DNA of 64,000 nt from Gossypium raimondii (taxonomy: Eukaryota; Streptophyta; Magnoliopsida; Malvales; Malvaceae): the NCBI RefSeq assembly GCF_025698545.1, contig NC_068575.1, positions 62,009,980 through 62,073,979 on the forward strand, read 5' to 3'. Positions 4,808-64,000 of this stretch are shown here, piece by piece (positions within the stretch are counted from its first letter, which is position 1; the number at the start of each line of letters is the position of its first letter). The position numbers and the translations under genes were made by a program. Below the pieces are notes generated by a model. The model was not told the origin of the DNA, ran no database searches, and was given only the letters and a program-made list of their open reading frames with translations.

Positions 4808-7436
4808 TATAACAGTCCGTTTTCAGTGAAATCGAAACAGTGATTTTGGGACCACAAATTCGAGGTCGAAAGAAAATTTATTTTAATATTATTTTATGGT
4901 CTATGGTATGATAGAAATGTTGTATAAAAATATCGTTAAGAAATTTTACCGATTACATGTCTAATTTGTTAAAAAGGACTAAATTGAAAACGGTACAAAA
5001 CTTGTTAATTATAATAGTTAAGTGATTAAATCACTTAACCAATAAATAATGGAGGACTTAAGGCATAAATATGCCTAAAGTAAATGGCTAGGCGGCATAA
5101 CATAGGAAATTAATAAACTAAAACCAATAAATGGCAAAATTGTAAATTTTGCCAAATTAAAATGAAATAAAATTGGAATTAAAGATTTTCTAGACATTTC
5201 CTCATAAAATTCGGCCAAGAACAGCCATGGGAGAGAGAGGGTTTAAGGTGGTTCTTCAATTTTTGCTTGATGTGAGTGTAATTCTTACTCATTTCTTAAT
5301 TTTTTTATGTTTTTGAGATTATTACAATTAGGTCCAAGTAACCTTTACTTTAGTTTTTTATTTTATTGAAAGTTACCATTGATGATTTTATATGATTTTA
5401 GTTATTAGATGATGAATTTGAGATGTTGTTGTGTACTTAGAAGTATTTTGTTAAAGAATTTTGATGAAATCATGATTTAGGGATTAAATTGAAAAGATGT
5501 TGAATTCATGGAAAATTCTGAAATTTTATGGAATTAATGGGCTGCTGTTGATATATATAAATTTTCTAGGCTTGGAATAAGGATTAAATTGTATGAATTT
5601 CATTTTTCGAGCCTAGGGATAAAATTGTAATTAATTAAAATATAAGGGTAAAATGGTAATTTTTCCAAAGATGTGTATTGGTTGAATTGAATATTAATTG
5701 TAAAAAATTGATGTTAAATTCATTCATATAGATCTAGATAGACCAAATACGGAGTTAGATCGAGGAAAATAAAAAAGTCAGATTAGTAGATTTTGCGTAC
5801 ACGAACACTTGTTGAGGTAAGTTCGTATAATTAAATTGTATGTTTAAATGTTAAATTGAATTGTATGTATGTGATTGTATTCTTGTTCTATATATAAAAG
5901 TAAACACATATCCGACGATGATCGACAAGCATTAAGTCCCATTTGAATAAATGAAATTCAATGGATACAGGGTTCCCGTATTGGTTGTGGTCCTGCATGT
6001 GTTGCGGACACACCACAGCTTGAAAGAGTGTCCTGTTATTAGCTCTCATGAGCTTCTCGTTAAATGGTTCTTGTTAGCTTCCCCTTAATAGCTCTTCGGA
6101 GCATCCCGATTGGTTGTGATACTGCATGTGTTGTGGACACACCGCAGCTCTTATGAGAGTCTTGATATATGGCTCTTCGGAGCGTCCCGATATTGGCGCG
6201 CTTGAATTTCCCAATTATGGCTCGAAAGAGCTTCCTATTTACATGTTTGCATAAGCATTCATGTATATGAATTGACGGATTATAGTTTTGTACACCTTGT
6301 GTGTACTACCCGTGTATCCATCGACATTTTAAATGATTCAACGAGCAAAATCCTAACATGAGAAAATATATAAATTCGAAATGAATCATTATCCGTATAT
6401 ACACGAAATAAATGGAAAATTGATATTTGATGAGCTCATACATGTTTTTTTTTATATTCATATGAAATAAACGACTTACATGTTTGATGAAGTATGTGTT
6501 TAGGCTATTAGCCAAATTGCTTTGGATGTATTTTGTATGCTTACATTAGATGTAAAAGAGTGGTAAGTTAATTTCCCATTATATGAACTTACTAAGCTTA
6601 AAAGCTTACTCTGTTTTATTTTTCTTGTTTTATAGTAATTCGGAGGCTCGAATTGGTTGGAAGCTGGTCGAAGCATCATTACACTATCCTTCGGCTCATT
6701 TCGGTATAAATATTAAATTACTTTTGATTATAATGGCATGTATAGACTAAATTTGGCCAATCATGGCATGTATATATGTATGTGTTTGGTTGAAAACTAG
6801 CCATTGGTATGGCTTGTAAATGGTATGTTTTGATATGTAAAAATGACCTTAATATGTTTGATGTGTATTTGAAATGGATGAATGTAGAAAATCATATAGA
6901 CATGTTAGTGATTGGTTTGTGATGGTATAAATGGTAAAATATGCCAATATGTATGTATGGTTATTTTAGTAAATTGGATTGTTAAACATATGTATTGATA
7001 ATTGGTATGTCATGCATATGACTTAGTTTTGACTTGATTTGAATGTTTTGTATTGGCTTGTGAACGTGTTAAAGTGTTAATGTAGGTGGAAGACAAATTG
7101 GGTGAGAAATGTGACCTTAGAAATGACCTAATTTCATCCACACGGGCGTGTGTTTCAGTCGTGTGTGACACACGGTCTATCCCACGGGCGTGTCCCCTGT
7201 ACCTTGGAAAATTTTTGAAATTTTCTGAAAAATTTTCCGAGTTTTTGGTTTGGTCTTGATTTAATCATAATGTGTATTTTGGGCCTCGAGGGATAATATA
7301 AGGGACGATATGAGTGATTATGATTGTTTTCTGATATGAATGTAAAATGATATGAAATGTCTGTATTTGAGTCTGTAAATTTCGGTAATGCTTTGTAACC
7401 CTGTTCTGGCGACGGATATGGGTTATGGGTGTTACA
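4808..7436 (+). mobile_element. Solo LTR (long-LTR retrotransposon family), 2629 bp, 5-bp TSD
   Basis: The element starts TATAACAG (a TG to TA change from TGTAACAG) and ends GGTGTTACA. It is flanked by a perfect 5-bp duplication, gagat, at 4803-4807 and 7437-7441. There is no gag or pol coding and no internal domain, so it is best read as a solo LTR left after LTR-LTR recombination. Its start and its end (GGTAATGC...GTAACCCTG..GGCGACGGATATGGGTT) are shared with the copies at 28600, 53814 and 61789. At 7140-7195 it carries the ACACGGGCGTGTG palindrome block, and at 5980-6240 a hairpin array. The Ty3/gypsy (Del/Tekay-like) assignment is inferred from length and genome context. Confidence 0.8.
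5980..6240 (+). repeat. Tandem stem-loop array inside the 4808 LTR
   Basis: Short hairpins recur about every 24-26 bp or multiples of it. They are AGCTC-TCAT-GAGCT (6041-6054), GCTC-TTCG-GAGC (6091-6102), AGCTC-TTAT-GAG (6146), GCTC-TTCG-GAGC (6172-6183) and GCTC-GAAA-GAGC (6220-6231), with decayed units between. A block containing 'cctgcatgtgttgcggacac' at about 5980-6020 is repeated at about 6109-6148, giving a higher-order repeat of about 129 bp. Role unknown. Confidence 0.7.
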
Positions 7437-7441
7437 GAGAT

Positions 7442-10240: not shown

Positions 10241-10243
10241 TTA

Positions 10244-10388: not shown

Positions 10389-10391
10389 TTA

Positions 10392-12700: not shown

Positions 12701-12779
12701 GCAACAATAGTGCTTGTTTGGCACCTAACCTCTGACTTGTCTGCACCACCATACAATTCACCATGTGACACTATGAAGG

Positions 12780-18058: not shown

Positions 18059-18432
18059 GGTAAAAGTATCATAGAGGACCTTATATTAGGAGCCAAATTA
18101 CATTTTATCTCATCTACTCAAAAAATTGGCAAATTAGTCATTGTACGTTAGATCAAAGAGAATATTGACCATTTTGTTAAAATTTCCATCAAATTCTATT
18201 ATTAAAAACAAGTCCATATACATCAAAATAAGGCACATGTGGCACGCCGTGTGCAGTTGTCTGGTTATTCCATCAACTACGTCAATTTTTAATAGTAGAA
18301 ATGGATGAAATTTTTAACAGAAATAACCAGTTTGCTCTTTGATCTAACATACAATGACTAATTTTCTTAGTTTTTAAGTACAAGGAACAAAATGCAATTT
18401 GACTCCTAAAACATGGGCCTCCATGATATATT
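18059..18432. mobile_element. Foldback MITE, TAAAAGTA family (copy 3), next to copy 2
   Basis: Same plan as the element just upstream: 'gtaaaagtatcatagagga' at the left and 'gggcctccatgata' at the right. The palindromic centre is around 'ggcacatgtggcacgccgtg'. The two copies lie in tandem 17 bp apart. Confidence 0.65.
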
Positions 18433-23059: not shown

Positions 23060-23061
<2 letters not shown>

Positions 23062-28599: not shown

Positions 28600-31213
28600 T
28601 GTAACAGCCCGTTTCTTAGTGGTGTCAAAAACAGTGGTTTCGGGGTCACCAAATTCGATGAGTAAGTTCGTATTATTTAATATTTACGAGTCAAATGTGA
28701 TTTTTAAAAATGTTTTTGATTTGATAATTTATGTTATATAAGTGATTTATTAAGTTCAAGTGGTTTTAGAAAATGAGAGGTATCGGGACCTTGTTTTTAT
28801 AAACTAACCCGTAAATATTTTTACAAATATTTACGGAGTGTCATTAAGGTGGTATTAAAGTTTCGTTAAGAAATTTTAACGTTTCAGTAGTTAATAGTTA
28901 ATTAAGAGAAAATGACCAAATTAAAAAAAGTGCATTCCCGGGACTCCGTTCCCATAAATCGAACTCATAAATATTTTTAATAAATATTTACGAAGCTAGT
29001 TGTGTAGTTAATTAGGTTTCGATTAAGTGAATTTGCTTGAATTAAAAGTAATTAGGTATAAGGACTAAATTGCATATAGGGGAAGTAGAATTATAGATTA
29101 AAGAAAATTTAAGGGACTAAATAAGCAATTATGCCATTGGCATTAAATGAGCCGGCACAAGAATGAAGATATTTATAAAATTTAAAGTTAAAATATATAA
29201 TATTATATCTTTATTATTAGGTATATATATTATATTATAATGATAAAATAAAGAATAAATAAAAAGAAAGAAAGAAAGAAAGAAAAGAAAAAGGAAAGAA
29301 AGGAAGGAGAAAGCCACGACCTTAGGGTTTCAATTGTTCAAAGTTCAATTAGTTAGTCAGTTTAGTCCATTTTTCTTGTAATATTTATGTTTTTAGAATT
29401 TCGGTGTTAAATACTACCCGACCCATGTCAAAATTTTAGAAATTATTGAGTTTTTAAGTGTTTTCTATGTTGAATAATTTTAGTATATGGACTAAATTGA
29501 TAGGTTTTAAGCTAGAAATGAACAAGGATTAAATTGTAAAACAAATTGTAAATTTTGAGTAATAGGGACTAAATTGTAACAATTTTGAAATTTAGGAATT
29601 TAAGTAAAATTAGAGAGTTAAATCTAGTTTAAAGTGGAAATTGAATAAAAATATAGGATTAAATGTAAATAAATAAAGTTAGTCTTGGTTTAGGGACTAA
29701 ATTGAAAATTAGGCAAATATTGAGAAAAAATTGAAATATGCAATATGAAATTGAATTGTGTTGTATGATGAATTTTAATTATTTTAATTTCGTAGCTAAC
29801 GTCGTACCGGAATCCTCGATTAAAAAGGGGAAAGATAAAGCCGACGTGGAATAGCTCGAAATTCCTAATTTGTATTTCTATAATCCGAATATAGTTATTA
29901 ATTATTGTATTTTGATTTAATGCTCATGGTAAGTGGTTGAGGTGAGTATTTGTTATTTTGATATTGAATTGAATTAAATTAAAGTTGATGGAAATTGATT
30001 GAATTGGTATATATATTATGATTGTATTGATTATTTGATTTGAATTGAATTTATGTGATTATATGAAAAAATGATATTGGTTATTGATTGTTTTTGAAAT
30101 GTGAAATTTAAACCCTATTAACTGTATCGGGCTAAGTCGGATATAGATGGCATGCTATAGGATTGGAAGAGTTCAGGGATTTCTTCGACTTCGAGTCGAC
30201 GAGACACTAGGTGTCAAATTATTACTTCGGATTAATTCTGTGAGGCATTGGGTGCCAATTTACTTCGGTTTAGCCAATGAGACACTAGGTGTTAAATTAT
30301 TCTTTCGAATTATCCGATGAGACACTGGGTGCCAAACTGATGTGTTTTGGTTGGATCCGTGTATTCGTCTGAGTTCAAGTCGTGTTAATAGGGGTAATTA
30401 AATGAAATGACACTATGATCGGTGTTGGATGATATTATATGTGAAATGAAAATGGGGCTGTGAATTGAAATATGGATTGAGACACATGAATGTAATCATG
30501 AATTGGACATGGAATGAACATTATTGTTGTTTAAGTGAAATGTGTATTATATTGTGAGAAGCTATTTTATGGCAATTAATGAGAATTGAGTATGGTATAA
30601 AATGATGTATTTATGATTTGAGTATTGAATGATTAATGCTGTTGTATAAATAAATGTGAATTTTAAATATTCAATTGTGCCTATTATATAATTTTGTCTT
30701 TAAATATTCGGATTATAGAAATACCACAGAGTTTTACTCAGCGTACGGTTTTGTTTCCCGTGCGCAGGTTAGGTACTTAACTATTGATCGCCGATTCAGC
30801 ATCCAACAACGATCCCGAACTCAAATGTGGTGATGTTTATCCTTTGTGCCAGCATGTACCTAGGGTGTCTAAATAATAGTTATTTTGTGGTTTGATTGTA
30901 AATGAGGTTATAAGTTTAATTTTGGTTGGTTTTATACATGTAAATATGTGTTTGTTTTTGAAGCTATATTATGGCATGGTAAATTGAACTAAATCTAGAT
31001 AGGTGCATGTGAATTTTAATTCTACGTTTAAGTGCTCATGAACTAGGCAAAATTGATTTGGATTTGATATGTTTATAATTTGGACTAAAATGATGCTTTG
31101 ATGACTTGTTTTGATGATATGAAATGTTTGAAATTTTTGTCTATTTGATCTGTAAACTCAGGTAATGCTCCGTAACCCAGTTTCGGCGAGGGATACGGGT
31201 TGAGGGTATTACA
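28600..31213 (+). mobile_element. Solo LTR, 2614 bp, near-perfect 5-bp TSD
   Basis: It starts TGTAACAGCCCG and ends GAGGGTATTACA. The flanks tgtga (28595-28599) and tggga (31214-31218) match 4 of 5. There is no internal coding domain. The ends match the LTRs at 4808, 53814 and 61789 (end block GGTAATGCTCCGTAACC..GATACGGGTT). It contains an AAAG/GAAA-rich microsatellite (about 29262-29310) and a hairpin array at 30186-30333. The start is closer to that of the 53814 copy ('agtggtgtcaaaaacagtgg') than to the 4808 copy. Confidence 0.78.
30186..30333 (+). repeat. Tandem stem-loop array inside the 28600 LTR (~40-bp period)
   Basis: Perfect or near-perfect short hairpins: CGACT-TCG-AGTCG (30186-30198), GACAC-TAG-GTGTC (30203-30215), GGCA-TTGGG-TGCC (30244-30256), GACAC-TAG-GTGTT (30281-30293) and GACAC-TGG-GTGCC (30321-30333). 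The last four start 37-41 bp apart, with 'ttcgg' or 'ttcga' in the spacers. Confidence 0.7.
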
Positions 31214-32384: not shown

Positions 32385-32750
32385 ATCAAAGTACTATGAA
32401 GACCTTTGTATTAGAAGTAGGATTATATTTAGTCCTCTCTACTAAAAAATGGGTAAATTAATCTTGTATATTAGATTAAAGAGCAAACTAGTTTCGTTAA
32501 AAATTTCATCCATTTTATTGTTAAAAATTATCCTTACATGTTATAATGAGACACATGACACACCACGTATATATTTTTAATTATTTTATCACCATGCCAA
32601 ATTTTAATTGTTAAAATGGATAAAATTTTTAACTGAAGAAATTAATTTATTTTTTAATAAGTATACAAAAGTTTATTTATTTATTTATTTTTGAATAAAA
32701 TGAGACAAAATTCAAATTAACTTGTAGCAAACACGCCAAATGTACCTTTT
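32385..32750. mobile_element. Foldback MITE, TAAAAGTA family (copy 4, degraded)
   Basis: 'aagtactatgaagacctttg' opens it. The middle 'ttaaaaatttcatccatttt' and 'ggataaaatttttaactga' are inverted copies around 'atgagacacatgacacacc'. The right end is eroded. Confidence 0.55.
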
Positions 32751-35634: not shown

Positions 35635-36417
35635 CTGGCAAAGCAGAAATTTGGACTTGTTAATATAAATATGTGTGTGTATAAAAATCATGATGTTTTG
35701 GCTCCATCTTTGATCCTGTGTGTATCGAGTTTTGTTCTTATTAAGTTGCCCTTTTCCATATTTTTGGTATAATATACCTTGCCTTTTGGAATCATAACAA
35801 AACCAGATCTAAGTTGGCTTTTGACATTTACACACCATAACCGTCTCTCATTGCAACTTCTTTTAATTTTAGTTTTGCTGTCATCAATCAACGATTCTGA
35901 ATTCAATTCTGGGTTGGAATTCGAATCTCAATAATTTCAATTACATCCCATTACAAGGGATGAACCGTGGAGCAGTAGGAAGGAATTTGGGTAAAAGTAT
36001 TTCCGCATATGGACTTGAATAACCAATAGAAGTAGAGCATAATTCACGAGTGAAGACACAAACATCTACATTCTGTAACTAAGGCAAACTCACAGGAGAT
36101 ACTAACGGATTTCATGACCGTCCAAACACAATTATATGTCCAGCCCCAACATAAATATTATAAAATGCAGAGCATTTCCTTCATCCTATCTTAAATCATG
36201 GCAATTTATAACGGCAGTTTACCGGAAATGATAAATGCATCAAAATAGAATGTAGCAGAGAAAGCAGATCAGGAATGAAGATGCAAGGATATGCCTAATC
36301 CAGGAAACCAGATGGCATATATCTCATTTTATTTGTTTCATAACCATAGGCAACAAAAACAGGGAGAGCAAAAATAAAAATGCGCATTATAAAAAGAACA
36401 TGGATATAGAAATTGTC

Positions 36418-39400
36418 TCAATGTGTATTTTCAGGAGAATGATGTATCCGACTTAAAATTACGGACTCAGACCCAGACTCATTTGACTCAGGAATCAAAG
36501 CCCCTGATTCCTTAGGAAAATCATTTATGGAACCACTAATTGCATCGCCAAAAGCATGTCTTTCCTCAGCACAGTACACAGAACTATTACCTTCAGTTTT
36601 GTTTATATCATTTGAATTTTCATCATCCGCAGCCAAACCAATGGCCTCTGCTGTATTATCAAGAGACCGCAAAGAACCTTCAACTACATCCTCTGAATTC
36701 ATCTGTTCAGTCTCGGTGTCTGTCTCTTCCGCCTTATTGCCATCCAAAGCTGGTTCAGGCACCTTCGGGTTTATGTCACAAAAACCAGCATTTGGCAGTT
36801 CTGATTTCTCTGGAGAAAGGCTATCCAGATGATCAGGTATCTCCCTTCTTTGGATTGAAACTAGCTGTTCCGTATTCTCGTCAGATGTAACAGATGGAAC
36901 AGCTTCTTCCGGCTGATCTGAATCTAGCATTGCTGAATCCACCATTTCTGCATCAGAAATCAAAACTGCCTCCTCTACTTCGTCTACAACATGATCAGGA
37001 CTTTGCTCCTTTCCCTTTTCCTTGGACGCTGAAGCAAATGCCAATATTCCACCTTTGACATCTAATATAGCACCCATTTGTAGCCTCTGTTTCTTGTAGA
37101 GGTCCATGGCTTTCTGCAAGTCAGAAAGCATTCGTGAATCACCATCATTAGTTTAGAATCAGTTTCCAAAATAAGGAGCACTACCATAAAAGATCTTCTA
37201 CGTTCCCTTCCCCCAAAACAATTCAAACCTAAACTATTCCCAGAAAAGAAAGATCTTAGATACAGTCAGGCTGATATACAGATATGAGCTTCACTAAGTA
37301 CCTGAAAAACAGAAGCATTAGTTGCTGGAATCAGTGAAGGGCTCAGCACAGCAAAGGAAGCATTTTGCACAGGTCGTGCATCATTCTGAAAAATACAAGA
37401 GAATGGGTATTTTAAGTCAAAGATCAGATAAATTAGATATTGAGAGACAATTATGTAGAAAAGGGTCCTCTCTACCTTTGAATTGACAAGCATTGTTACA
37501 TCTTTAGCCAAATCTTTACTTTGCTCCACATTCAGTAAACCCATACACTGACCATATAAATCAGAACCAGCTAGTTCTGCTGAAATGTCAAGCTTAGAAA
37601 GATAAAGCAGACAATAGTGAGCATCACCATCTTGACTTGATACTTTGGAAGAATCAGGTGCCTTGTGTGGAACCATGGGTGAAAGTCTAGAAGATTCTTT
37701 AACTGGTGACATGTCATCAGATCTTGTTTCAAGACCTTTCACCTGAAGACCATTATTGCCATTTTCATATTGATACCTCCGACGTTCCTGTCCATCATAA
37801 ACATCCTCAGGAGAGGCCTGCAGAGGATTCTCCTCCCTCTGAGATGTTGAGGGCAAGTCAACGTCACCATTTTGTCCTTTCCACACATCTGAACTGGGAT
37901 CCCATCCCCGACCATTCACTGGATGCCTATTCTGGTCCCATTCGGGACCCCCGAACATGTGCGCTTCATCCCTAAAAATAATATTGTGACCATCCCAACC
38001 ATGAAAATGGGCTGGACCGGAGCCATCCATCGTATTCTGCCAGCCCATTGGCCGTAAATGATTGTTAAACCTTTCAGCATCAGGTATATGATATGGAATC
38101 CCAGAGTGATTAATTTCCATTGAGGGTCTACCACCAAACAGAGATGGAGAAGGAAACTGTGGCATCATAGCTTGAAAAGCACCATGGGGTGGCCCAGGTT
38201 GGAAAGGGATGAAACTATTTGGAACAGGTGCTGGCCAGTTTGGGGCGACCCTCCAAGCATTTGCGTGCCCTCTTCTAACATTCAGATCACCACTCCTCTT
38301 GTAGCGACCACTGTTATTGAATCTATTATCTTCTTCTAGAGAACCCATGAAAGAAGGGCTGCCAATTCCAGCCCTTAAACCAGGAGGTTGTGAAATCAAA
38401 GATGAGTTGCCCTGACCAGCTCTATTATAAAACACAGAATCTGCTTGAGAGGATCCATCCAAAAGAGGCTTCTCAGGAGGCAAGTCTCGACTAAGTCTAT
38501 TATCCTCTTCTCTGCCACCAGCAGAGGCACTGCTCCACCCCGTCTCCTCTGTGTCAAGACCCCGCCTAACACTTCTACCCGTATATCTACGCTCAAGACT
38601 TGTTGAAGGAGATTTTTCCATCATACTCATTGGGGAAGCTTTTAAACTTGAGGACCTCTCAATTGGTAACTCCCCAGAATGGTCCTCATCCGCCCTACTT
38701 GATTTCTCCATGGATCTGTACTTAGCACCCCTCTCAGAGGTTTCAGAAAAACTAGTCACCTCTCTTGACAAAGCTGCTTTGGACCGCTGCTCTGTCATTG
38801 GATCTCTATAATTCGAATCTTCTTGCTTCAAATGTCTGTAAGAGAAAATAAGTCTATTACACTCAAGAAAGCACTAGGGATAGTGGTGGGGCCATACCCC
38901 CAAGCACCAGAAATTAGTAGAATGCCACAGAGAATGAGAAAATAAAATCAGTATAAATTGTCAAACAATAATCTGAATATCTGACAGAAATTACTGACTT
39001 AATACCGTACATTGTTTGCTGCTCAGTTTACCATTTAAACCATAGAATATGGAATAAAAAATATTGAAGAGGGTGTGATAAAAGCAAAAGAGTACCTATA
39101 CTCATCAGTCCCACCATGAGAACTTGAGCTGGGAGAAGCCCTCCTCCTGTTGCTGCCCATAGCAGCATCTAAATTGGTTGGGCGTGACTGACACCTTCCC
39201 CTATCAGCATCTACCTCGAGTCTACCAGAAGCTGATTTATTTTCCATGTCAGAATACTGTAGTTTGGCACCTCTAGATTTAGTATCATTACCGTCATCCC
39301 GATCATCAGGAGATCGCTTCCTTCCCTTACTATCTTTGTTTCTAGCACTCCTCCGCTCATCATGTAACTCATCACGCTCACGATCTCTATCCTTGTCCCG

Positions 39401-42400
39401 ATAACTGTAACGGAGATCACGTTCTCGATCTCGATCCCATTGAGAATCATAATCACGATCATTGTCATGATCACGATTGCGGTCACGTTCCCGATAATGG
39501 TCACGATCAAGATCACGATAACGTTCTCGCTCTCGGTCGCGTCCAATATCCCGCTCTCGATCACGCTCCCGCTCCCTATAGCGCTCACGGTCTCTATCAC
39601 GATCACGCTCTCTATCATGGTCACGATCACGCTCAAAGTCACTATCTTGAACCTTGGACTTCTTCTGCCGAATTTTACCGTCATCTTTTCCATCCCTTAA
39701 ATGCTTCTCACTAGACTTACTATTAGCATGATCGCTTGCCACTTGGTCATCTTGGCACTTATCTTCACAGTTAATGTCTTCCCGATACTTGTCTTTGTAT
39801 CTTTCATCCTTATGCTTCTCATCTCTTGCTCTTACATCTTTGCTAGTATCATTGCTTGCAGACAACCGCCTGTCCAAAATGTCTCCATTATCTTCCAGAT
39901 GCTTATCCACATCACCAGAAGCATCTCTCTTTTTCCTAAGTCGTCTCTCAAGCTGGCTCTCTGATTCAGGACTTTGCAACCGATCTGGTACATCAAAATC
40001 TGAAATACAGAAAAAGGAAAAGGAAAAAAAATGTTACCAAGAATATCTGACAGTCTACTTACAGAAAACACCTCGAAAGCTATAATTTGATTTCAGCAAA
40101 TATTACTAAAACTCCTCTGAAAATCCGGAAATCTGGACTCGATAATGACCATACAGTTTATCATTTTCCGCAAACAGAAGACAAGATCCTCTGGAAAGTG
40201 CATGTAATAATATACCAAGCAGAGCAATGACATATAACACTGAAAATGTAAAGCAATCCAAAACAGAAAACTGAAAGATCACAAACTTAATATTTGAATT
40301 CATAAAGCAAACAAGTAAACTTATCTAGTCTACTATAAGCTAATAATAACTTTAAATCTGTGAAAAGCAGATACAAAGAGAAAGTGCCGAAAGACTGACG
40401 CATCTAGACATAGCACTGATATATTTGAGCCAAAGCAGCATGAAAATTTTATATTAGGCCTCAAACGAAGGTAAACTCACCGCACTGAAACATCATCCCC
40501 AAGCCAAAACAGAAGTGGATAGATGACAGTAGCCAGATAACTATCCACAACCATGACAGCTTATGAAAGAAGGAATTCTTCCATTACCAGTTGAGGATTT
40601 AGATGGAGTATTTATTAGAAATATTTTTAAATACAGAACTATTTATAAAACGGTCAGCACTTCTCATCATATTTTATCAACTTCCAAAACTCCCTTCAAA
40701 GTCCAAACATGCCATTTATTGAAATTTGAAATACCACGATCAAGGCAATACATTCATTACCTTCAAGTTATTCAAGGCTCCACTGGAAAATATAATCAGG
40801 ACCATGGAACTTATAAGTACAAGGGATCCTTGCGGGCTCTGACCAACCTTGGCTAAACAAGATTACCTAAGTTGGGAAATTGACTTCATATACTTAGAAA
40901 AACACATGTAAATGCACTTCTAAGTGTACAAGAAGTGTGGCAGCTTCAAGCTCAACCAAGTAAATTCTCCACTCAATATACATATAAATTGTTCTCTTAT
41001 ACAAAAAAGGGAACCATGTATGGGAAAGTACTTCTATAATAACACTTTGAAGCTAATATAAAATTAAATATTGGAGACTCCACAGAAATTTTCAAAATTC
41101 GATTCCTTTCAAACCGATACCCAGAAACAGGAAACCAGCCAAAAGAAATATTCACTGCAGAAGGCTAACCGACAATTTCAATTTGATATTGAAGATAAAG
41201 GAAATGGAAAAGATAAGCAATCTTATCCTGGTCCATACACCACTGTTCTAGGAACTCAGACACAAGGTGCATGTCTATGCAGAAAAAGTGTAATACACCA
41301 GGTTTAAGGTCAGACATTAGTTTCTTCATAACAGTAGTTAAGAAGGCTATAAAACAATGAAAAAGTCACACCTTCCCAACACCATAAGACCTGATCAGTA
41401 GAAACTATCTTCTCAACTATGTCACCTAATCTTTAAATTCCTCAACCCAGCCTCTCATCCTGAAAACAGACATCTACTTTTCTTCTTTGGCTCATGGAGC
41501 AAATAAAAGTTGCAAAATTAGATAACTCTTAACACTTAAAATTATTTGGCTTGAAGTTAAACTTCCCCAATCAACTTAACATGGTTCTGAGAGTTTGTAG
41601 ATATATATTATATATAGACTTAACCATGGATGCATTCGAAAGAATAGCTTTCCTCTGAAATCTATAGTTTAAAAGTTTGCAAAAGAGGAAATTAGAAATC
41701 TAGCACAGTCCAACAAAAAGGGCAACTCGAAGTTATATATCAATAGATAGAGTCCCTATTCAATGCAGTATGTATTAACTCCTAAAAAACAAAAATGGGA
41801 AAATAAAATGACAATCAATCTTAATATACCATACCTAACAACAAAAAAGGGCACCAAAATAATTAGAAATGTACATGCTAAATTGTCACTAAACAACCAA
41901 CAAACAGTAAGTTATCTTACCAGTTCTTTCGGTGGATTGTTTCACAGAGCGGTGTTCTTCATTCTCAATGAACCTATCACTCTTGCCTTCTTTACCTTTC
42001 CTTTCTCTCTCCCTTTCCTCTTTTCTACTTGATTCTCGATGCTTCCCTTCACTCTTACTCCTCTTTGTATCATCCCCTTCAATATCCTCTCGTCTCTTAC
42101 TCTTCGATTCACTTGAAGCCTTAGACTTCTTCTCTCCTTTACCATCATCATCTTCACCACCATTCCACCTATCGTTTACTCCATCATCTGCCTTTTCTTT
42201 GCGCCGCTTCGAGGAACTGTACTCCTCAATATAATCTCCATTCCCCGAAATCCATATTTCCTTGCTGGTATCCTTAGCGTCAAGCTTTCTCTTGTCACCG
42301 GATCCAAGCTCCTTTGAAGACCTAACACTACTCTCCTCCTTACTCTTCTTTTCCTTCTCCTTTAAGCCCGAATCTTTCTCCGAATCCGAGTAATCCCTAG

Positions 42401-44540: not shown

Positions 44541-44818
44541 TATACAATTATACGTCCAGCTAAATGCAGAGAATCAATAGGAAAACATAAAAACAAAATC
44601 ATGGCAATTTATAAAAAGCAGTTTTACCAGAAATGTTAAATGCATCAAAGTAGAATGTAGCAGATCAAGAATGAAGAAGATGCAAGGATATGCCTAATCC
44701 AGGAAACCAGATGGCATGTACCTCATTTTATTTGCTTCATAACCATACGCAACAAAAAACAGCAAAAGTAAAAAATAAAAATGCGCATTATAAAAAGAAC
44801 ATGGATATAGAAATTGTC

Positions 44819-47800
44819 TCAATGTGTATTTTCAGGAGAATGATGTATCCCAGTTAAAATTACCAACTCCGACCCAGACTCATTTGACCCGGGAATCAAA
44901 GCCCCTGATACCTTAGGAGAATCATTTAAAGAACCACTAATTGCATCATCAAAAGCATGTATTTCCTTGGCACAGTACACAGTACTATTACCTTCGGTTT
45001 TGTTTATATCATTTGAGTTTTCCTCGTCAGCAGGCAAACCAACTGCCTCTGCTGCATCATCAAGAGACCGCAATGAATCTTCAACTACATCCATTGGATT
45101 TATCTGATCAGTCTCGGTGTCGGTCTCTTCTGCCTTATCACCATTCAAAACTGGTTTAGGCACCCCTGGCTCCATGTGACCAGAATCAGTACTTGGCAGT
45201 TCTGGTTTTTCTGGAGAAAGGCTATCCAGATGATCTGGTAACTCCCTGCTTTGAATCGAAACAAGCTGTTCCATATTCTCATGAGAAGTAGCAGTCAGAA
45301 CAGCGTCTCCTTTCTGCTGATCTGAATCAGCCATTTCAGCATCAGAAATCAAAACTGGCTCCTCTGCTTCATCGACTACACGATCAGAACTTTGCTCCTC
45401 CTTGGGCACTGAAGTAGATGCCAACATCCCACCATTGGCATTTGGAATAGCACAAATTTGTAGCCTCTGTTTCTTATAGAGGTCCATGGCTTTCTGCAAG
45501 TCAGAGAACATAAATGAAACACCATCATTAGTTTAGAACCAGAAGTTGAAAGTTGAAGTAGAAATGACTATGTTTGATCTGGGGGAAAATAAGTAACAGC
45601 ATTCCCCAGGTCATATATTTTTATACATGCTTTTATAACCATTATTAAGCATTTCATAATTCTATTTCTCCCACCAAAGAAGTAACAGAAAAAAGATCTT
45701 AGATATACTCAAACGCATATACAGATACAAGCTTCACAAATACCTGAAAAACAGAAGCATTAGTTGCAGGAATAAGTGAAGGGCTCAGAACATCAATAGA
45801 AGCATTTTGTACTGGTCGTCCACCGTTCTGAAAAATACGAGAAAAAGGGTACTATAAGTCAAAGATCAGATAAATTAACTACTGAGAGAAAATTTTGAAG
45901 AAAAGGGTTCTCTACCTTCAAATTCACAAGCATTGTTACATCTTTACCCAAATCTTTACTTCGCTCCACATTCAGCAAACTTGCACACTGATCATACAAA
46001 GCAGAACCAGCTAGTTCTGCTGAAATGTCAAGCTTACAAAGATAAAGTCGACAACAGCGAGCATCATCATCTTCACTCGATATTTTGGAAGAATCAGGTG
46101 CCTTGTGTGGAATCTCAGGTGAACATCTAGAAGATTCTTTTGCTGCTGGCAAGACATCAGATCTTAATTCAAAACCCGTCACCTGAACATCATTATCGCC
46201 ATTTTCATATTGAGACCTCTGACGTTCCTGTCCATCATAGACATCAAGAGGGGCCTGCAGAGGATGGTCCTCTTTCTCAGATGTTGAGGGCAAGTCAACA
46301 TCACCATTTTGTCCCTTCCACACATCTGAACCGGTATCCCATCCCCGACCATTCACTGGATGCCTATTCTGGTCCCATTCGGGACCCCCGAACATGTGCG
46401 CTTCATCCCTAAAACTAACACTGTGACCATCCCAACCAGGAAACTGGGCTGGACCAGAGCCATCCATCGGATTCTGCCAGCCAATTGGTCTCAAATGGTT
46501 GTTAAACCTTTCGGCATCAGGTATATGATATGGAATCCCAGAGTGATTAATTTCCATTGAGGGCCTAACACCAAACAGAGATGGAGAAGGAAACTGTGGC
46601 ATCACAGCTTGAAAACCACCATGAGGTGGCCCAGGTTGGAATGGGATGAAACCATTTGGAAGAGGTGCTGGCCAGTTTGGGGCACCCCTCCAAGCATTTG
46701 CATGCCCTCTTCTAACGTTCAGATCACCACTCCTCTTGTACCGACCAGAGTTATTAAATCTATGATCTTCTTCTAGAGAACCCATGAAAGATGGGCTGCC
46801 AATTCCAGCTCTTAAACCAGGCGGCTGTGGAATCAAAGATGAGTTGCCCTGACCAGCTCTATTATAAAATACAGAATCTGCTTGACAAGATCCATCCAAA
46901 AGAGGCTTCTCAAGAGGCAAATCTCGACCAAGTCTATTATCCTCTTCTCTGCCACCAACAGAGGCACTACTCCATCCTGTCTCCTCTGTATCAAGACCCC
47001 GCTTAACACCACTTCTACTCGTATATCTACGCTCAAGACTTGTTGAAGGAGATCTTTCCATCATACTCATTGGGGAAGCTTTTGAACTCGAGGACCTCTC
47101 AATTGGTAACTCCCCAGAATGGCCCTCATCCGCCCTACTTGATTTCTCCATGGATCTATACTTAGCACCTCTCTCAGAGACTTCAGAAAAACTAGTTACC
47201 TCTCTTGATGAAGCAGCTTTGGACCTCTGCTCTGTCATTGGATCTCTATGCTTCGAATCTTCTTGTTTCAAATGTCTACAAGGGAAAATAACTCTATTAT
47301 ACTCAATAAATCACTTTTTTTGGGAGGGAGGGGGGGTGCAGCCATACCCACAACCACCAAAAGTAAGTCATATGCCACAGGCAATGAGAAAATAAATTCA
47401 GTTTAACTCATCAAACAATAATCTGAAATCTGATAGACACTAACAGCTCATTGAGATCCCTTATTTACTCAGTTTACCATTTAAAATATTGAATAAGGAA
47501 TTGACAATATTGAAGAGGGTGTGATAAAGAAACAAAGTACCTATACTCATCAGTCCCACCATGGGAAATTGAGCTGGGAGAAGCTCTCCTTCTGTTGCTG
47601 CCCATAGCAGCATCTAAATTGGCTGGTCGTGACTGAGACCTTCCCCTATCAGCATCTACCTCAACTCTCCCAGAAGTTGATGATTTATTTTCCATGTCAG
47701 AGTAGTGTAATTTGGTACCTCGAGATTTAGTATCATTACCATCATCACGATCATCAGGAGATCGTTTCCTTCCCTTACTGTCTTTGTATCTTGTACTCCT

Positions 47801-50800
47801 CCGTTCATCATGTACCTCGTCACGGTCATGATCTCTATCCTTGTCCCGATCACTGTAACGATGATCGCGATCATGATCTCGGTCTCGATCCCATTGAGAA
47901 TCATAATCACGATCATGGTCGTGATCACGGTTGCGGTCACGTTCTCGATAATGGTCACGATCAGGATCACGATAACGCTCACGCTCACGCTCTCGATCCC
48001 GCTCCCGCTCCCTCTCCCTATAACGCTCACGGTCTCTATCACGATCACGGTCTCTATCATGGTCACGATCACGCTCATAGTCACTATCTTGAACCTTGGA
48101 CTTCTTCTGCCGAACTTTCACATCATCTTTTCCATCCCTCAAATGCTTCTCACGAGACTTGCTATTAGCAAGATCACTTGCTGATCGATCATCTCTCAAT
48201 TTATCATCTTGGCACTTGTCTTCACAGTTCATGTCTTCTCGATACTTTTCTTTGTATCTCTCATCCTTATGCTTCTCATCTTTTGCTCTTCCATCCTTGC
48301 CGATATCATTGCTTACATACAACTGTTTGTCCAAAATGTCTCCATTATCTTCCAGATGCTTATCCCCATCACCAGAAGTATCTCTCCTTTTCCTAAGCCG
48401 TCTCTCAAGCTGGCTCTCTGATTCAGGACTTTGCAACTGATCTGGTACATCCATATCTGAAATGACAAAAAAAAAAAAGGAGAGATATAAAATTTTCCAA
48501 CATGACCAAGTTATTCACAATGAGTATTTCCCACAACATAAAAGGAATACCTTGTACAAGAAATTATTGGGTTAAAAAATAAATAAAACTTAAAAGACTT
48601 CTGGTTCCAGTGCACGAAATACAAATAATAACAATAATAACAACTAGATGATACCGAGAAAACACTACAAAAGTTAAAATTTTCATTTCAGCAAAAATTA
48701 CAAAAATTCATGAAATTCCCCACTTGACAATGACCATACGGTTTATCATTTTTCACAAACAGAAGACAAGAACCTATGGAAAGTGCATGTAATGATATAG
48801 CAAGAAGAGCAATGACTACATATAAATACAACAACAAAAATGTAGAGCAATCAAAAGCTTAATAGGAAATCTGAAAACAAGACAGAAAACTGAAAGATCG
48901 TTAACTTAATATTAGGATTCATAAAGCATACAAGTAAACTTATATGGTCTACTAAAAGCTAACAACAAGTTTAAATCTGTATAAAGTATGAAATAAAGCG
49001 AAGGTGCCAAAATCCTGACACATCTTGACATAGCACTGATATATTTGAGCCAAAACAGCAAAACCTTTTTATACTAGGCCTCAAGCAAAGATCAGCTCAC
49101 CGCACTGACAAAAACATCTTCAGTAAAACAGAAGTGGCTACATGACCTTAGTGAGATGAAATTCTTTCATTACCAGTTGAGGATTTTGAAGGTGTATTTA
49201 TTGGAGATATTTTTTAATACAGAACTATCAGTAAAAAGTTAAAACTTCTCATCGTATTTTATCAACTTTTAAAACTCCCTTCAAACTCTCTTCTTCCATT
49301 AATTTTGAGGCAATAACTTCATTACCTTCAAGTTATTTGAGGCTCAACTGGAGGATGCAACCAGGACCATGGAATTTATATGCACATTAGATCCTTGCAG
49401 GCTCTGACCAAATTTAGCTAAGCAAGATTTCCTAAGTGGGGAAATTGATTTCATATACTTGAAAAAACATATTTAAGTGCACTTCTAAGTGTACAAGAAG
49501 TGTGACAACTTCAAGCTTGCACCAGTAAATTCTCCTCTGAATTTACATAAAAATTATTCTCTCATCCAAAACAGGGAACCATGTCTGGAAAAGTACTTTC
49601 AAAATAACACTTTGAAGCTAATAAAAAACCTAAATACTGGAGACCCCGCTGAAATTTTCAAATTTTGATTCCTTTCAAACAAATACCCAGAAACAGGAAA
49701 CCTTGCAACATAGGGAAAATTTTCAAATTATTGCTCTAGAGACTCAACATAGGGTGCATGTCAATTCAGAAAGAGAATAACACACCAAGTTTGAAGGCTG
49801 ACATTAGTTGCCTCGTAACATCATTCAGAAGGCTATATAAAACCTTGCAAAAACCACACGTCCCAATATCATAAACACTAATTATTGGAAAAAATCTTCT
49901 TCCATTAATTTTGACTGTGTTAACTATTCTCTAAATTGCTAAACCCAACCTCTCATCCTGCAAAAAAAGAATCTACTTTTCTTCTTTGCCTCATGCAGCA
50001 AATAAAGTTCCTAAATCAGATAACTCTTAACATTTAAAATTAAGTGGTTTGAAGTTGAACTTCCTCAAAAAACAAGAATCAACTTAGCATGTTTTCTTAG
50101 AGAGAGTGTGTAACCGTAGATGCATTTGTGAGACATTAATTAAGACTAGCTTTCCTCGAAATCTGTAGATTAAAATTTAGCAATACTAGAAATTCCAAAT
50201 TTATTATTTCTAACAATGACTAGCCATTAATTACAAACGCAAAAGGATCTGAAGATCCTTTAAAAATAAGCACGGCTCAGTGCTTATTAAGTTAAACAAG
50301 TTAGAAAGGTTCTGAAATCACATAAATATTGTCCCTATTCAATTCAGAAGGTGTTAACTCCAAAAACCAAATAAAAAACTTATAAAAAAATTGGGGAAAA
50401 TAATAATATAACAATGAATTGCAATATACACTACCTACAACAAAAAACAGCACCAAAATAATCAGAAACGCACATAGAATAAGTTATCTCACCAGTTCTT
50501 TCGGAGTATTGTTTCACAGTGCGGTGTTCCTCACTCTCAATCAGCCTATCACTTTTGCCTTCTTTACTTTTCCTTTCTCTATCCCTTTCCTCCTTTCTAC
50601 TATATTCCCGATGCTTCCCCTCACTCTTACTTCTCTTTGTATCATCTGCTTCAACATCGTCTCGTCTCTTACTCTTCGATTCACTTAAAGCCTTAGACTT
50701 CTTCTCTCCTTTACCATCATCTTCACCGCCATTCCATCTATCGCTTACTCCATCATCTGCCTTATCTTTACGCCGCTTCGAGGAACTGTACTCCTCAATA

Positions 50801-52911: not shown

Positions 52912-52929
52912 TAAGTTTAAGTTTGAATC

Positions 52930-53813: not shown

Positions 53814-54054
53814 TGTAACACCTATAACCTTTATCCGTCGTCGAAACAGAGTTATGAAGCATTACCGAACTTTATGAAATAAACACGGAGATTTTATAAC
53901 AATTAATAAAATATATCAAAAATCAATCATAAAATACTCATATTGTCCCTTGTATGAGCCCTCGAGGCCCAATATACACCTTAGAAGTGAATCGGGACTA
54001 AACAGAATACTCAAGGAATTTTTCCCAAAATCTCAAAATTTTTCTTAAGAGCAG

Positions 54055-54360
54055 GGGACACACGCCCGTGCGGCTAGCCGTGTGGCTCACATGGCCAGGA
54101 GATACGCCCGTGTCTTAGGCCGTGTGGGCATTCGATGTAAGGCACACAGCCGTATCTCAGCTCGTGTCTATACCCGTGTAACTCTCTGACTTAGGTCACA
54201 CGCCCAAGCCACACGCCCGTGTGTTAGGCTATGTGCAAAAACCTGGGAATTCTGTTTCAAAATTTTAAGATGCAGGGGACGCACAGCCAGACCACGTGCC
54301 CATGTGATAGGCCGTGTGTCACACACGGCTGAGACGCACACCCATGTCTCTGCCTGTATG
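54055..54360 (-). repeat. Cluster of CACGGGCGTGTG-type palindromes in the 53814 LTR
   Basis: At least six variants of 'acacgcccgtg', 'ggccgtgtg' or 'cgtgtgtcacacacggc' lie in 300 bp. The same motif is present once or twice at 7140-7195 and at 62030-62060. It is markedly richer in G+C than the rest of the LTR. Confidence 0.7.
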
Positions 54361-55095
54361 AACGAAAATAGGCCATTTTATGGCCTATTTTCTCACCTAT
54401 TCTTGACTTCAGCCTACACACTTCAAATTTCATACATATAGGTCATAACAGGGTCACCAAAATAACTAATTCCTAACTTTAATATGATTATATTATCACA
54501 TATATTCTAACATTTTAATTAGAACATAAATCAATTCACACATGTAACTACCTATATCAACATGTTTTACCAGTTTATTCATTATTATGCCTAGAAACTA
54601 TCCATCCATTAACCACACTAGTACTTATACCAAACATGATAAAACCATACATATATAAGTTAACTTGAAAAATAAACAAAATGTAATTCTTGACATTTAC
54701 ACAACCATTTCAATCCCTATACATGCCATATAAACTATAATATGTATTGCAAAATCTATCGGAATAAGTTGGATAGTGTGGCTCGATGTGTTGATCCGAT
54801 CTCTCGACTTATCAAAAATCTACAAAGAACATTAAACAACACAAGTAAGCTTATTGAAGCTTAGTAAGTTTGTTGGCTTTAAACATAAATCTTACCGAAT
54901 ATACTATAACAACTCATTTAAATAAAGCATTCAATACACATTTCCTGCCAATCACAACTTCAATTGATGAATTCACTTATTTAAGATCAATATCAATAAT
55001 AACTTTAAGTATTCAAACATTAATTCTATATGTCACTTACCAACCCTTGTCAAATCAGAGAACGTCTTACGGATATGAGTACATCGTATACAGAA

Positions 55096-55232
55096 GCCCG
55101 AAGGCTGCACAGAAGCACATAAGTGCTGAACCGAAACCCGTAATGGTTGAATGGAAGCTTATAAGAGCTGAACGGAAACCTATTAGGGTTAAACGAAAAC
55201 TCATATGAGTTAACTGAAGCTCATGAGAGCTA
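55096..55232 (-). repeat. Seven-unit tandem hairpin array, 19-21-bp period, in the 53814 LTR
   Basis: Plus-strand stems start at 55096, 55115, 55136, 55157, 55178, 55199 and 55219. They are AGCC/GGCT, AGCAC/GTGCT, AACC/GGTT, AGCT/AGCT, AACC/GGTT, AACTC/GAGTT and AGCTC/GAGCT. Loops are four nt in four units and longer in the three four-pair ones, and a spacer like 'gaacgga' or 'taaacga' separates the units. In LTR-sense orientation the first unit has a C(TTCG)G loop. Stem sequence changes while pairing is kept. Confidence 0.8.
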
Positions 55233-56633
55233 AACGGAAAGCAAACACCAAAGTTCGCAACAAATGTTGAACCTCGATTTACTTGGGCAATTTGCCGTCA
55301 ATTCCTCCTTTGCACTGAACGAATGTACTCAATCCCGCGTTCCATTCGTTTCGAACGTTCAATTCAATTTCATAACTTTAATAATAATTTTATTTTCAAC
55401 AAATGATATGAATAAATACATAATATCATTCATCAATTTAACATATAACATTAAATTTTAGCCATACGAACTTACTTGGGTTAAATTGTGGAATTTGTAG
55501 TAGTTCAGGGACTATTTTGCTAAATTTTTTTTCACGATTATCCACATGCTCTTGATCTAAAATATAAAATTATTCATTTTATCATATTTTTCAATTCTAA
55601 TTCACTTCACAATTAATACCCTTCATTTTTGAAATTAAATAATTACCCTAACTTTTATAGTTTTTTGCAATTTAGTCCCTCACCAATTAGTCTATCAAAT
55701 GAGCTAATTTTTCTCAATTGACAATTTATCTAAATATTCTAAACTATCATAAGACCTTTGATCAATATAATTTTAGTATCAAACCCTAATATTTAATCTT
55801 TTCACAGTTTGGTCCTAAAACCAATTTCTATTGAAATCACTTGATAAAATCATCATATAATAAAATTAAAGCTCTAAATACATGTTAATTCATCACAAAC
55901 ATCCAACAATCATCAATGGTAACTTTCAAAATTACCCATAAAATAAAAACTAATGACATAGATAGTTGGACCTAATTGTAAAAGTCTTAAAAATACAAAA
56001 TTATAAGAAATAAGTAAAATTGAACTCACTTGTAGCAATATAAAAGGAAAACCAGCTTTATAAGCTTTCCCCATGCCGTTTTTACCAAAGTTACAAAGAG
56101 AATGTCTAGAAATCTCTTTCAATTTCTATTTGTTTAGTTAGATTTCACGTAATTTACAATTTTACCCTTCATTTGTTTTATTTATTATTTTTCATTAGCA
56201 TGCCGTCCAACTATGTTAGTTTAGGCATATTTGTCCTTTAAATTCTCCATTATTTATTATTTATACCATTTACTCACTTATTTTCTTTAATTAGCAAGTT
56301 TTGCATATTTTCAATTTAGTCCTTTATATTTAATTAACTATCAATTCGTTAAAATTTTGTAACGAAACTTTACTACTACCTTAATAGCACTCCGTAAATA
56401 TTCATAAAAATATTTACGGCTCGGTTTATGAAATCAAGGTCTCATTACCTCGTTTTCAAAATCATTTAACTTAATAAATCCTTTTAAAACACAAATCACT
56501 AATTCAAAAATCTTTCTAAAATCATATTTAACTCGTAAATACTAAATAATAAAATTTACGAGCTCACTCGTCAGATTTAGTGGTCTCGAACCACTGTTTC
56601 TGACACCACAGAAAATTGAACTGTTACAGGGAA

Positions 56634-61535: not shown

Positions 61536-61788
61536 ATTTTGTAAAGAAAAAACAGCATTCATCTAAGTTCTTTGGAGTGCATTAATTTTTTTGCTTTGCT
61601 CAAGTGTGTACTGGTCTTAGTTGCCACAAAATATTGTTTTTCAGGTTGCTTTGGCAATCAAACATTGTTTATATCTCAGATTTTTATTTTTTTTATCTTT
61701 GTGATAGATTTCGAATTGATTTCTGTTGATTGCACTCATCTTAACTTTTTAGGTACTACCGGCAGTGTTGTGAGAACCGGATTGGTCT

Positions 61789-64000
61789 TGTAACACCCCT
61801 AACCCGTACCCGTTGCTGGACTAGGGTTAAGAGGCATTACCAAACAATTCACGTCTATATACAAACATTTCATATACATTGATCATGTATCATCATATCA
61901 CATTCATTCATAATCACATTGTCCCTTAAATAGGTCTACGAGATCTAAAACATGCTTTTAAAAAGGTTCGGGACTAAACTAGTTACACATAAAAATTTCC
62001 GAAACTTTAAGAATCTTTTAAGTAACAGACGCCACACGCCCGTGTGAACAGTCGTGTGGACGAATATAGGCCATTTGCAAGGCCAATTCGCCAATCATAA
62101 AGGTCAACCCTACACAAGCACAAAATATACCATTTTTATACACAATAGGCAACTTAAACATTGTGAATTCATGCATCAAACATTAACCACAATTGCATCA
62201 AACATGCCATACCAATTCAACCATTTCATCTATTCATATACAAACTTTTGTCTAACCACAAACATACTAAATCGATATGATTTATTATTTAACCAAACAA
62301 TCATCATTTAAACCAATTTAACAAGACATGAAAATCAATGTCTTTTAGACCTAAAATACTCAATTCCTTTTTCATTATCTCAATTACAACATAACCTCTC
62401 AATACCAATATAAACAAACACATAAATACCATTATTCATCAATCGTGAATATCAATTTGGACACTTCCACTAATGCATCAATAACTTTACTAAAGCTTAC
62501 CACATAACCACAATCATATACAAATTATAAGACCATCTACATATCAAACCTCACATTATAAACAAGCCAAATCTCATGGCTCAATACATTTCAAACATAT
62601 AGGCACCAATAGCCAAAATCACTTATACTTTTAACAAACCAACTAGCCTATACATGCTACATAATCAAAATTACAAATCTTTTAAGTACCGAAACTATAG
62701 CTGGATAGTGTGATAGGATCTCCGACGACTTCCAACCCGAGCAAGCCTTTGAAACACTATAAACATAGAAAAATAACACAAAGTAAGCTATAAAGCTTAG
62801 TAAGTTCATACGACTAATAAACTCATATTAGCAATTAAACACATTTACGTAATTACATAAAATATAACACAATTCATATGATCTCACAATTCAATCACAT
62901 AATCACTTACATAGCTAACCTTAACTTTCACAAGTTTAATCAATTCAATTATCATATAACATTCAATTCATACTTCCATATAGCCAAATGAGCACATTTT
63001 GGTATATAACATATTTAAACACATATCTTTCTCATTTTCTATACATGATAAGGTATGAATTCACCAATTCACTTTCATTCGATTCTCACATAAATCCTGT
63101 ACGTACCTGTCTTGCTTAACTCGATCGTACTTTCATTCTCAACTTTCACTTACTTGTTGATTCTGTCACGAATACTTTGCTTTCGTTGTACCATCACTTA
63201 TAACCATGTTTCATCCACTTTTCCTATTGAACCATTTGGAATACTAAAGGATACTCGGGGATCTCGTACACATAGTACCGTAACAATGCCATATCCCAGA
63301 TATGGTCTTACATGTAATCTTGTATCGATGCTAATAGCCCAGCCATGGTCTTACACGAAATCACATATCGATGCCAATGTCCTAGACATAGTCTTACACG
63401 AAGTCTCATATCGATGCCATATCCCAGATATGGTCTTACACGTAATCTCGGTAACGCTAATGTCATGACATTTGTATCCTATCTATTCCTAAGTTTCAAC
63501 CGAGACTTTTACTTTATCAAATCTCTGTCAAACATTTTCAAAGCATTGTAATCACAATTACATTTAATATTTAAGTATTCACCATAATTATCTCAATAAA
63601 ACATTTAAACATATATAATTTAATGCTTATTAAACATACGAACTTACCTCATTCGCTGAAACGACGAATTAGATCGACTAATCCGATACTTTGATTTTCC
63701 CTCGATCTAGATCCAAATTCCACTTTTCTCATCTATATAATATCAAAATTAAATTATTTAATTATCTTCTATTCACTTTAATCAAAATTTAGTTTAAAGT
63801 ATATTTACACTTTTGCCCCCATAATTTTACATTTTTGCAATTTAGTCATTATAACATAAAATCACAATATCATGAAATTAAACACAAACTCAAGCTAGCC
63901 GAATTTTCCATATATTACCATAATTTCAATTTATTTCACATTTTAAACACTAAATTTTCACATTTCACAATTTAGTCCAAAATTAACATTTTTCTCAAAA
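61789..64000 (-). mobile_element. LTR (minus orientation), running off the window
   Basis: Starts TGTAACACCCCTAACCCGTA, the reverse complement of the shared LTR 3' end (GGTTAGGGGTGTTACA). 62030-62060 carries an ACACGCCCGTGTG palindrome, and 63289-63472 the hairpin array. No coding. The other end lies beyond 64000, so it could be solo or one LTR of a longer element. The 5 bp before it are ggtct, the expected duplication to look for. Confidence 0.75.
63289..63472 (-). repeat. Five-unit tandem hairpin array (~42-bp period) in the 61789 LTR
   Basis: Hairpins are CCATATC-CCA-GATATGG (63289-63305 and 63417-63433), ATAGC-CCA-GCCAT (63334), ATGTC-CTA-GACAT (63377-63389) and AATGTC-AT-GACATT (63459-63472). 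Unit starts are 41-45 bp apart, with the spacer 'gtcttacacgaa' and 'catatcgatgc'. Confidence 0.75.

Follow-up and report, generated by a model that had tools for sequence, protein, structure and literature searches.

Four long terminal repeats with tandem hairpin arrays

We analysed a stretch of 64,000 nucleotides from the genome of Gossypium raimondii (contig NC_068575.1 of assembly GCF_025698545.1, forward-strand positions 62,009,980 to 62,073,979; hereafter, the window), which holds four retroelement long terminal repeats (LTRs), each with a tandem array of small hairpins. LTR1 (4808..7436, plus strand) has the ends TATAACAG...GGTGTTACA, starting with TA rather than TG, and lies between exact 5-bp repeats (GAGAT/GAGAT); the flanking repeat sets its true start at 4808, and 4812 was the start used in the computations. 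LTR2 (28600..31213, plus strand; ends TGTAACAG...GGGTATTACA) is flanked by TGTGA/TGGGA, and LTR3 (53814..56628, minus strand, with minus-strand ends) by GGGAG/GGGAA, each pair agreeing at 4 of 5 bases. Judged by their ends and 5-bp flanks, these three LTRs are complete; they are apparently solo, because the matching or near-matching repeats lie directly at both ends of each single LTR. LTR4 (61789..64000, minus strand), with its 3' end at 61789, is cut by the end of the window.

The array of LTR1 (5980..6240, plus strand) consists mostly of GCTC/GAGC stems, closed by the loops TTCG (6091-6102 and 6172-6183), GAAA (6220-6231), TCAT (6041-6054) and TATG/TTAT (6148-6159). That of LTR3 (55095..55231, minus strand) comprises six hairpins with 5-bp stems and 4-nt loops, together with AGCC-TTCG-GGCT (55095-55106). 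LTR2 carries four hairpins starting at 30203, 30244, 30281 and 30321 (array 30203..30333, plus strand), whose stems, of the GACAC/GTGTC type, carry TAG or TGG triloops; a G.U pair is present in hairpins two and three and an A.C mismatch in the fourth. In LTR4 (array 63289..63433, minus strand), the hairpins at 63417-63433, 63377-63389, 63334-63346 and 63289-63305 close on TGG or TAG, mostly the former. We see two classes of array here, one with tetraloops (LTR1 and LTR3, which also have similar linkers) and one with triloops (LTR2 and LTR4). An earlier note on the window, made from its letters alone (the original prediction), had reported that two LTRs share the identical hairpin AGCTC-TCAT-GAGCT, and we find it in LTR1 and LTR3.

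Copies of the families were drawn from the host assembly (750.8 Mb, 281 contigs), where a first look gave 1881 candidates for LTR1, 622 for LTR3 and 2991 for LTR4. Forty were scored for each family; leaving aside the window's own place, 39 remained, of which 20 were fetched. In two of 20 fetched loci, a tRNA-Met-like primer-binding site (PBS) was found: L018 has TATTGGTATCAGAGC after GTGTTACA, and L023 has the same with one base changed. The succession of GTGTTACA and a TGGTATCAGAGC-type PBS behind the 3' LTR end in these loci fixes the sense strand. A longer piece continuing L018 (L069) encodes a CCHC zinc knuckle (PF00098) and a retroviral protease (PF08284, RVP_2); shorter pieces gave no Pfam match. 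The PBS, the knuckle with the protease, and LTR ends with a 5-bp target-site duplication were thus all found, and the elements appear to be of the Ty3/gypsy type, an assignment based on the knuckle, the RVP_2 protease and general knowledge rather than on the order of the pol domains. Among plant Ty3/gypsy elements, those of the Tekay/Del type are probably the closest.

Excess, position and spacing of the hairpins

Hairpins with at least 4 Watson-Crick pairs and a loop of 3-6 nt were counted against 500 dinucleotide shuffles. LTR1 has 7 (shuffle mean 1.84; 1 of 500 shuffles reaches this number), LTR2 has 4 (mean 1.04; 2 of 500), LTR3 has 6 (mean 0.71; 0 of 500) and LTR4 has 3 (mean 1.25; 50 of 500), a weak enrichment in the last case; with stems of at least 5 pairs, the 3 hairpins of LTR4 compare with a mean of 0.55 (3 of 500). 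The count for LTR2 takes in TCGACT-TCG-AGTCGA (30185-30199) and ATTGG/CCAAT, which is an alternative pairing; under strict Watson-Crick rules, the repeated TRG-loop type is thus left with two hairpins. The tandem hairpins that the original prediction had placed in all four LTRs are therefore present, with an excess over shuffles that is clear in LTR1 to LTR3 and weak in LTR4. When the whole window was scanned in 160-base tiles (stems of at least 5 pairs), three hairpins were found together in 24 of 3192 tiles, compared with 0-8 such tiles in each of five shuffled windows; of these 24 tiles, 8 coincide at least in part with the array of LTR2, LTR3 or LTR4 and none with that of LTR1, and further clusters lie, for instance, at 37801, 47461 and 56461.

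The arrays of the three complete LTRs sit near the middle of the element, as had been described, at 44-54% (LTR1), 61-66% (LTR2) and 49-54% (LTR3) of its length. Spacing is a different matter. In LTR1-type copies, 96 of 156 spacings under 70 are 24 or 25 and 26 more are 48-50, with 37-41 in LTR2, 20-21 in LTR3 and 42-43 in LTR4; the common quantum of about 21 bp once proposed for the four LTRs finds no support in these values and is rejected. Unit number also varies, from 5 to 17 across 21 LTR1 loci by a loose motif count.

Pairing is kept between units whose arms differ

The hairpins were defined from the window copy and followed through the fetched copies; for LTR1, 15 of the 21 rows form the alignment, the dropped ones being L010, L011, L015, L022, L025 and L026. 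Among the 21 copies of LTR3, a Watson-Crick pair is the most frequent one at every one of the 30 positions that the six main hairpins comprise (in 13-21 copies each), and 575 of the 630 individual cells are Watson-Crick; with the seventh hairpin, 650 of 735 cells are Watson-Crick, against 107-304 in slid registers. Between units, pairs 1, 3 and 5 stay constant, and at pairs 2 and 4 both partners are replaced (G-C/A-U in one case, U-A/C-G/A-U in the other), and when arms are permuted among the units, the true pairing is the highest of 720 arrangements (2 reach its score; mean 450). Three hairpins of the window's own LTR3 have a mismatched fifth pair, but in 16, 19 and 13 of 21 copies, respectively, this pair is Watson-Crick, which suggests that the mismatches arose by decay of the window copy.

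LTR4 behaves similarly, with ATATC, ATGTC and ATGGC stems around a TGG loop that recurs in 16-20 of 21 copies at each unit. Its cells are Watson-Crick in 375 of 420 cases, and none of the 24 possible arrangements scores higher than the true pairing of arms (2 reach its score), a test whose p can be no better than 0.08, the minimum allowed by so few units. For LTR1, arm permutation is uninformative (2648 of 3000 permutations reach the observed score), because its stems are alike; when its units were located by the linker only (143 units in 21 loci), 56.8% of 715 cells were Watson-Crick, against 14.7-31.2% in slid registers. Over the 90 stem positions, the commonest pair is Watson-Crick at 79, G.U at 7, A.C at 1 and something else at 3.

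Within a family, covariation is nearly uninformative: the LTR3 copies contain 17 G.U and 18 A.C cells, which is what dead DNA would be expected to give, and only 2 T-A cells testify to changes on both sides. The near absence of signal follows from neutral decay of the copies and from stems that hardly differ within a family. Covariation among copies, by which the original prediction would have judged its case, is thus nearly empty within a family, but the changes between tandem units of LTR3 and LTR4 are two-sided.

An LTR4-like array also occurs near an LTR1-type copy on the minus strand (L026, from about position 3900 of the reversed locus onward). Its units, CCATGTC/GACATGG, CCATATC/GATATGG and CTATGTC/GACATAG on a TGG loop, include a further two-sided change.

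Stems vary less than loops and linkers

Shared variants, defined as sites at which 3 or more copies have a minor base, were pooled over LTR1, LTR3 and LTR4; the counts include one mispaired LTR1 unit, and the p-values serve as guides, as neither sites nor copies are independent. Rows were chosen by similarity to an array query, which biases any comparison of the array with the rest but not that of stems with loops or linkers. Stems carry such variants at 12 of 190 sites, compared with 21 of 72 in loops (p 3e-6), 37 of 235 in linkers (p 0.003) and 328 of 1730 in the rest of the segment (p 3e-6), and the direction is the same at thresholds of 2 and 4 without site exclusion. Loops and linkers are CpG-rich, and within the arrays the stem deficit is strongest at G/C sites (11 of 110 stem sites against 42 of 125 non-stem sites; at A/T sites, 1 of 80 against 16 of 182). 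With CpG sites excluded, the counts are 7 of 182 for stems, 10 of 60 for loops (p 0.002), 18 of 196 for linkers (p 0.04) and 255 of 1615 for the rest (p 1e-6); at threshold 2, p is 0.047 against loops and 0.21 against linkers, so the contrast with linkers is lost. With CHG sites excluded as well, variants remain at 4 of 169 stem, 5 of 53 loop, 11 of 174 linker and 216 of 1548 other sites. The lower variation of stems is partly driven by CpG and becomes marginal once both site classes are removed.

Splice-like blocks border the arrays

By BLAST, LTR1 and LTR3 share stretches in the 5' third, a short block GTAAGTTCGTRT, a second short block TACTAAGCTT..AGCTTAC, and the 3' end, and both inner blocks, together with the 3' end, are likewise common to LTR1 and LTR4; no alignment extends over the arrays. 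Behind the second inner block come a U-rich tract and TAG. Both strands of the window considered, AGGTAAGT occurs only twice, at corresponding places of LTR1 and LTR4, and TACTAAGCTT only three times, in LTR1, LTR3 and LTR4. Each array lies between the two inner blocks and starts 163 nt (LTR1), 214 nt (LTR4) or 244 nt (LTR3) behind the GT of the first. Because it is thus enclosed by a conserved AG/GTAAGT (the slash marking the border) and a block with branch point, U tract and TAG, the array looks intronic in these three LTRs, within putative introns of 819 nt in LTR1 (5817..6635, plus strand; GAG/GTAAGT ... TTTTATAG), 656 nt in LTR3 (54820..55475, minus strand) and 891 nt in LTR4 (62757..63647, minus strand).

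The borders are well kept among the copies of LTR1 and LTR3. For LTR1, AG/GTAAGTT and TAG are each present in 15 of 15 aligned copies, and a motif search places the donor in 17 of all 21 rows; among the rows dropped from the alignment, the motif is present in L015 and L022, and L010, L011, L025 and L026 have no donor in the expected place. For LTR3, the 21 copies are highly conserved at donor and branch block, with GT in 20, GTAAGT in 19 and TAG in 21. The donor GT of LTR4 is found in 20 of 21 copies, and the branch/TAG block lies at the same distance in 9, all nine with TAG; the other 12 differ downstream, and in the three that were followed, the block lies further on and ends in TAG once and in TAA twice. 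In the LTR4-type copies of this kind that were read (among L051, L057, L064 and L068), the sequence that separates the array from the block is longer and of another kind, which suggests recombinant LTR subfamilies.

For LTR2, a tentative intron of 839 nt (29929..30767, plus strand; ATG/GTAAGT ... CCGTGCGCAG) comes from direct reading: the donor-like ATG/GTAAGT is kept in one relative (L025), and the acceptor-like site was read by eye in the window copy. The distance from this donor-like site to the array is about 274 nt. A second copy of GTAAGTTCGTAT stands at 28662 on the plus strand, close to the 5' end of LTR2; this 12-mer has the same sequence as the donor-like block in LTR1, LTR3 and LTR4.

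Folding on the two strands

Global minimum-energy folding of whole arrays mixes the arms of different units, and folding was therefore limited in span. The sense strand has the lower local folding energy in 14 of 15 LTR1 and 19 of 21 LTR4 copies, but in only 7 of 21 LTR3 copies. Against shuffles, the z-scores on the sense and antisense strands are -3.3 and -2.4 for LTR1, -2.6 and -2.4 for LTR2, and -5.0 and -5.6 for LTR3, the mean of the window being -0.25. The sense strand also presents C(UUCG)G and C(GAAA)G loops, forms that are stable in RNA. We tentatively favour action at the level of RNA over action at the level of DNA.

Other features of the window

At the gathering score, Rfam returned no match to any array; the only matches, to the MIR7502 precursor, lie outside the arrays at 18175-18319 and 32495-32634, the former on both strands, as from an inverted repeat. 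A segment of about 6 kb is repeated once (36370-42159 and 44771-50731) at a spacing of 8.4-8.6 kb, with 84-92% likeness in most blocks (73% in one) and with CGATCACG-type short tandem repeats in both copies (39456-39646 and 47906-48077); it is possibly a duplicated gene.

Discussion

Collectively, the changes on both sides of stems between units, the lower number of stem variants and the kept position speak for selection on structure, as the original prediction had proposed; covariation within families, being nearly empty, says little either way. The hairpin shape is probably useful to the element. As to what that use might be, we tentatively regard the arrays as cis-acting RNA structures of related Ty3/gypsy-type LTR families, comparable to the retroviral packaging signal psi and acting in unspliced RNA. 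The LTR transcript would be spliced at the donor- and acceptor-like borders, and the array, removed with the intron, would be present only in unspliced, genome-length RNA. There, the hairpins may fold in vivo, and their similar loops (UUCG, GAAA and NNAY in LTR1 and LTR3; URG triloops in LTR2 and LTR4) could give a single protein several places to bind, the simplest candidate being the CCHC-type Gag of the element itself. In this way, the array would single out unspliced RNA to be exported, dimerised or packaged, like the retroviral psi behind the major splice donor. Unit number would shift easily by tandem duplication, which may explain the fast turnover of sequence under a kept architecture.

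Several observations weigh against this reading. Of the 7 G.U positions, four belong to the outermost pair of LTR1, where three other units are unpaired, another has G.U as its commonest pair in only 7 of 15 copies, and one LTR1 unit has a C.A mismatch in 11 of 15. With CpG and CHG sites excluded, the stem deficit has a p of 0.037 against loops and 0.11 against linkers (0.15 and 0.33 at threshold 2), and LTR4 taken alone has no deficit (3 of 48 stem, 4 of 72 linker and 21 of 565 other sites, CpG excluded). The folding z-score of LTR4 is only -1.1 on the sense and -1.8 on the antisense strand; the antisense score is the stronger one in LTR3 as well, where local energy does not favour the sense strand either. 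At the acceptor, TATAA stands in two of the three LTR4 copies of the long form. The exon map is not unique, because the LTRs have additional donor-like sites (28662, 6562, 55041 and 63156), those of LTR1, LTR3 and LTR4 being GGTAAGT or AAGTAAGT sites downstream of the arrays. The evidence for LTR2 comes from the window copy and L025 only, and splicing, transcription start and protein binding are all steps that we infer.

Somewhat less probable is that the arrays are RNA structures which, instead of binding Gag, control splicing itself or the translation of a very long leader, as an intron-retention switch, a shunt or an internal ribosome entry site-like element. Known shunts use one large stem rather than many 5-bp hairpins. 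The location of the arrays behind a donor-like site and ahead of an acceptor-like block would suit such a role, and leader structure controls translation in plant pararetroviruses, according to the part of PMC5902531 available to us. Nothing in the data separates control of this kind from the psi-like reading.

Control at the DNA level, by tandem palindromic protein sites or cruciforms akin to enhancer repeats, with the intron signals coincidental, seems rather unlikely. Palindromic arms are symmetric between strands, the folding scores of LTR3 and LTR4 are at least as strong on the antisense strand, and tandem repeats in the U3 regions of LTRs can regulate transcription, as described in the portion of PMC3601003 consulted. 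However, arm sequence varies between units with pairing kept, which a fixed half-site would not allow, and G.U outnumbers A.C by 7:1 among the commonest pairs, a ratio that includes the doubtful outer pairs of LTR1. The RNA-stable tetraloops on the sense strand and the location between splice-like blocks also argue against it.

Less likely still is a mutational by-product without a selected role, in which hairpins were duplicated in tandem during reverse transcription and their arms matched by templated correction of quasi-palindromes. Reverse transcription is prone to slippage at hairpins, and the range of unit numbers among LTR1 loci is in keeping with this. Yet shared variants are fewer in stems than in loops, some G.U positions persist, the TGG loop recurs at each unit of LTR4, and two-sided changes are almost absent within the decayed LTR3 copies, with the caveat that such correction would act only in live elements. 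That the arrays are ordinary AT-rich LTR repeats, whose chance palindromes and shared ancestry were over-read by eye, we consider improbable in view of the shuffle tests, the arm permutation and the stem constraint, even though the linkers of LTR1 and LTR3 are alike enough for the arrays to be simply homologous, the enrichment in LTR4 is marginal (50 of 500) and the whole window is richer in hairpins than its shuffles (137 against 87-102).

The psi-like reading draws on the stem-loops of the HIV-1 and MLV leaders, which the arrays resemble as a cluster of small hairpins, some with tetraloops, behind a donor-like site in an element with a CCHC Gag. They differ in lying inside the LTR, before the PBS and 160-270 nt or more behind the donor-like site, and in being built of numerous tandem units that are alike; Gag binding and packaging are predictions for the arrays. 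Short tandem repeats are also found in the U3 regions of LTRs such as that of tobacco Tnt1, but those are of a promoter type in the part of PMC3601003 available, whereas the units here are hairpins with two-sided stem changes and probably lie downstream of the promoter. The same source links stem-loops to conserved long R regions of retroviral LTRs, another case of pairing-based conservation within an LTR, and in the part available does not describe these as tandem arrays of like units. With plant Ty3/gypsy elements, the families share the Met-tRNA-like PBS, the CCHC knuckle and the RVP_2 protease; they differ, as far as the titles and beginnings of abstracts listed by our searches go, in the hairpin array between splice-like borders inside the LTR. 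Judged in the same way, searches of the open-licence literature listed no description of hairpin arrays or array-bearing introns in plant LTRs. We rate as the new aspect that a structured retroelement leader RNA of a known kind appears here as a tandem array inside the LTR. The fuller proposal is of an LTR intron whose tiny hairpins, from four to more than ten in number and with recurring loops, form a multivalent array and label unspliced genomic RNA for Gag, with letters turning over and geometry and place staying; we put it forward with considerable doubt.

Little is known of how LTR retrotransposons of plants select genomic RNA for packaging in preference to spliced or host RNA. A conserved array between splice-like borders would offer a short, testable cis element for this question, in families with hundreds to thousands of first-look candidates in a single genome. 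Moreover, comparing tandem units and related families may suffice, within one genome, to reveal that structure is conserved.

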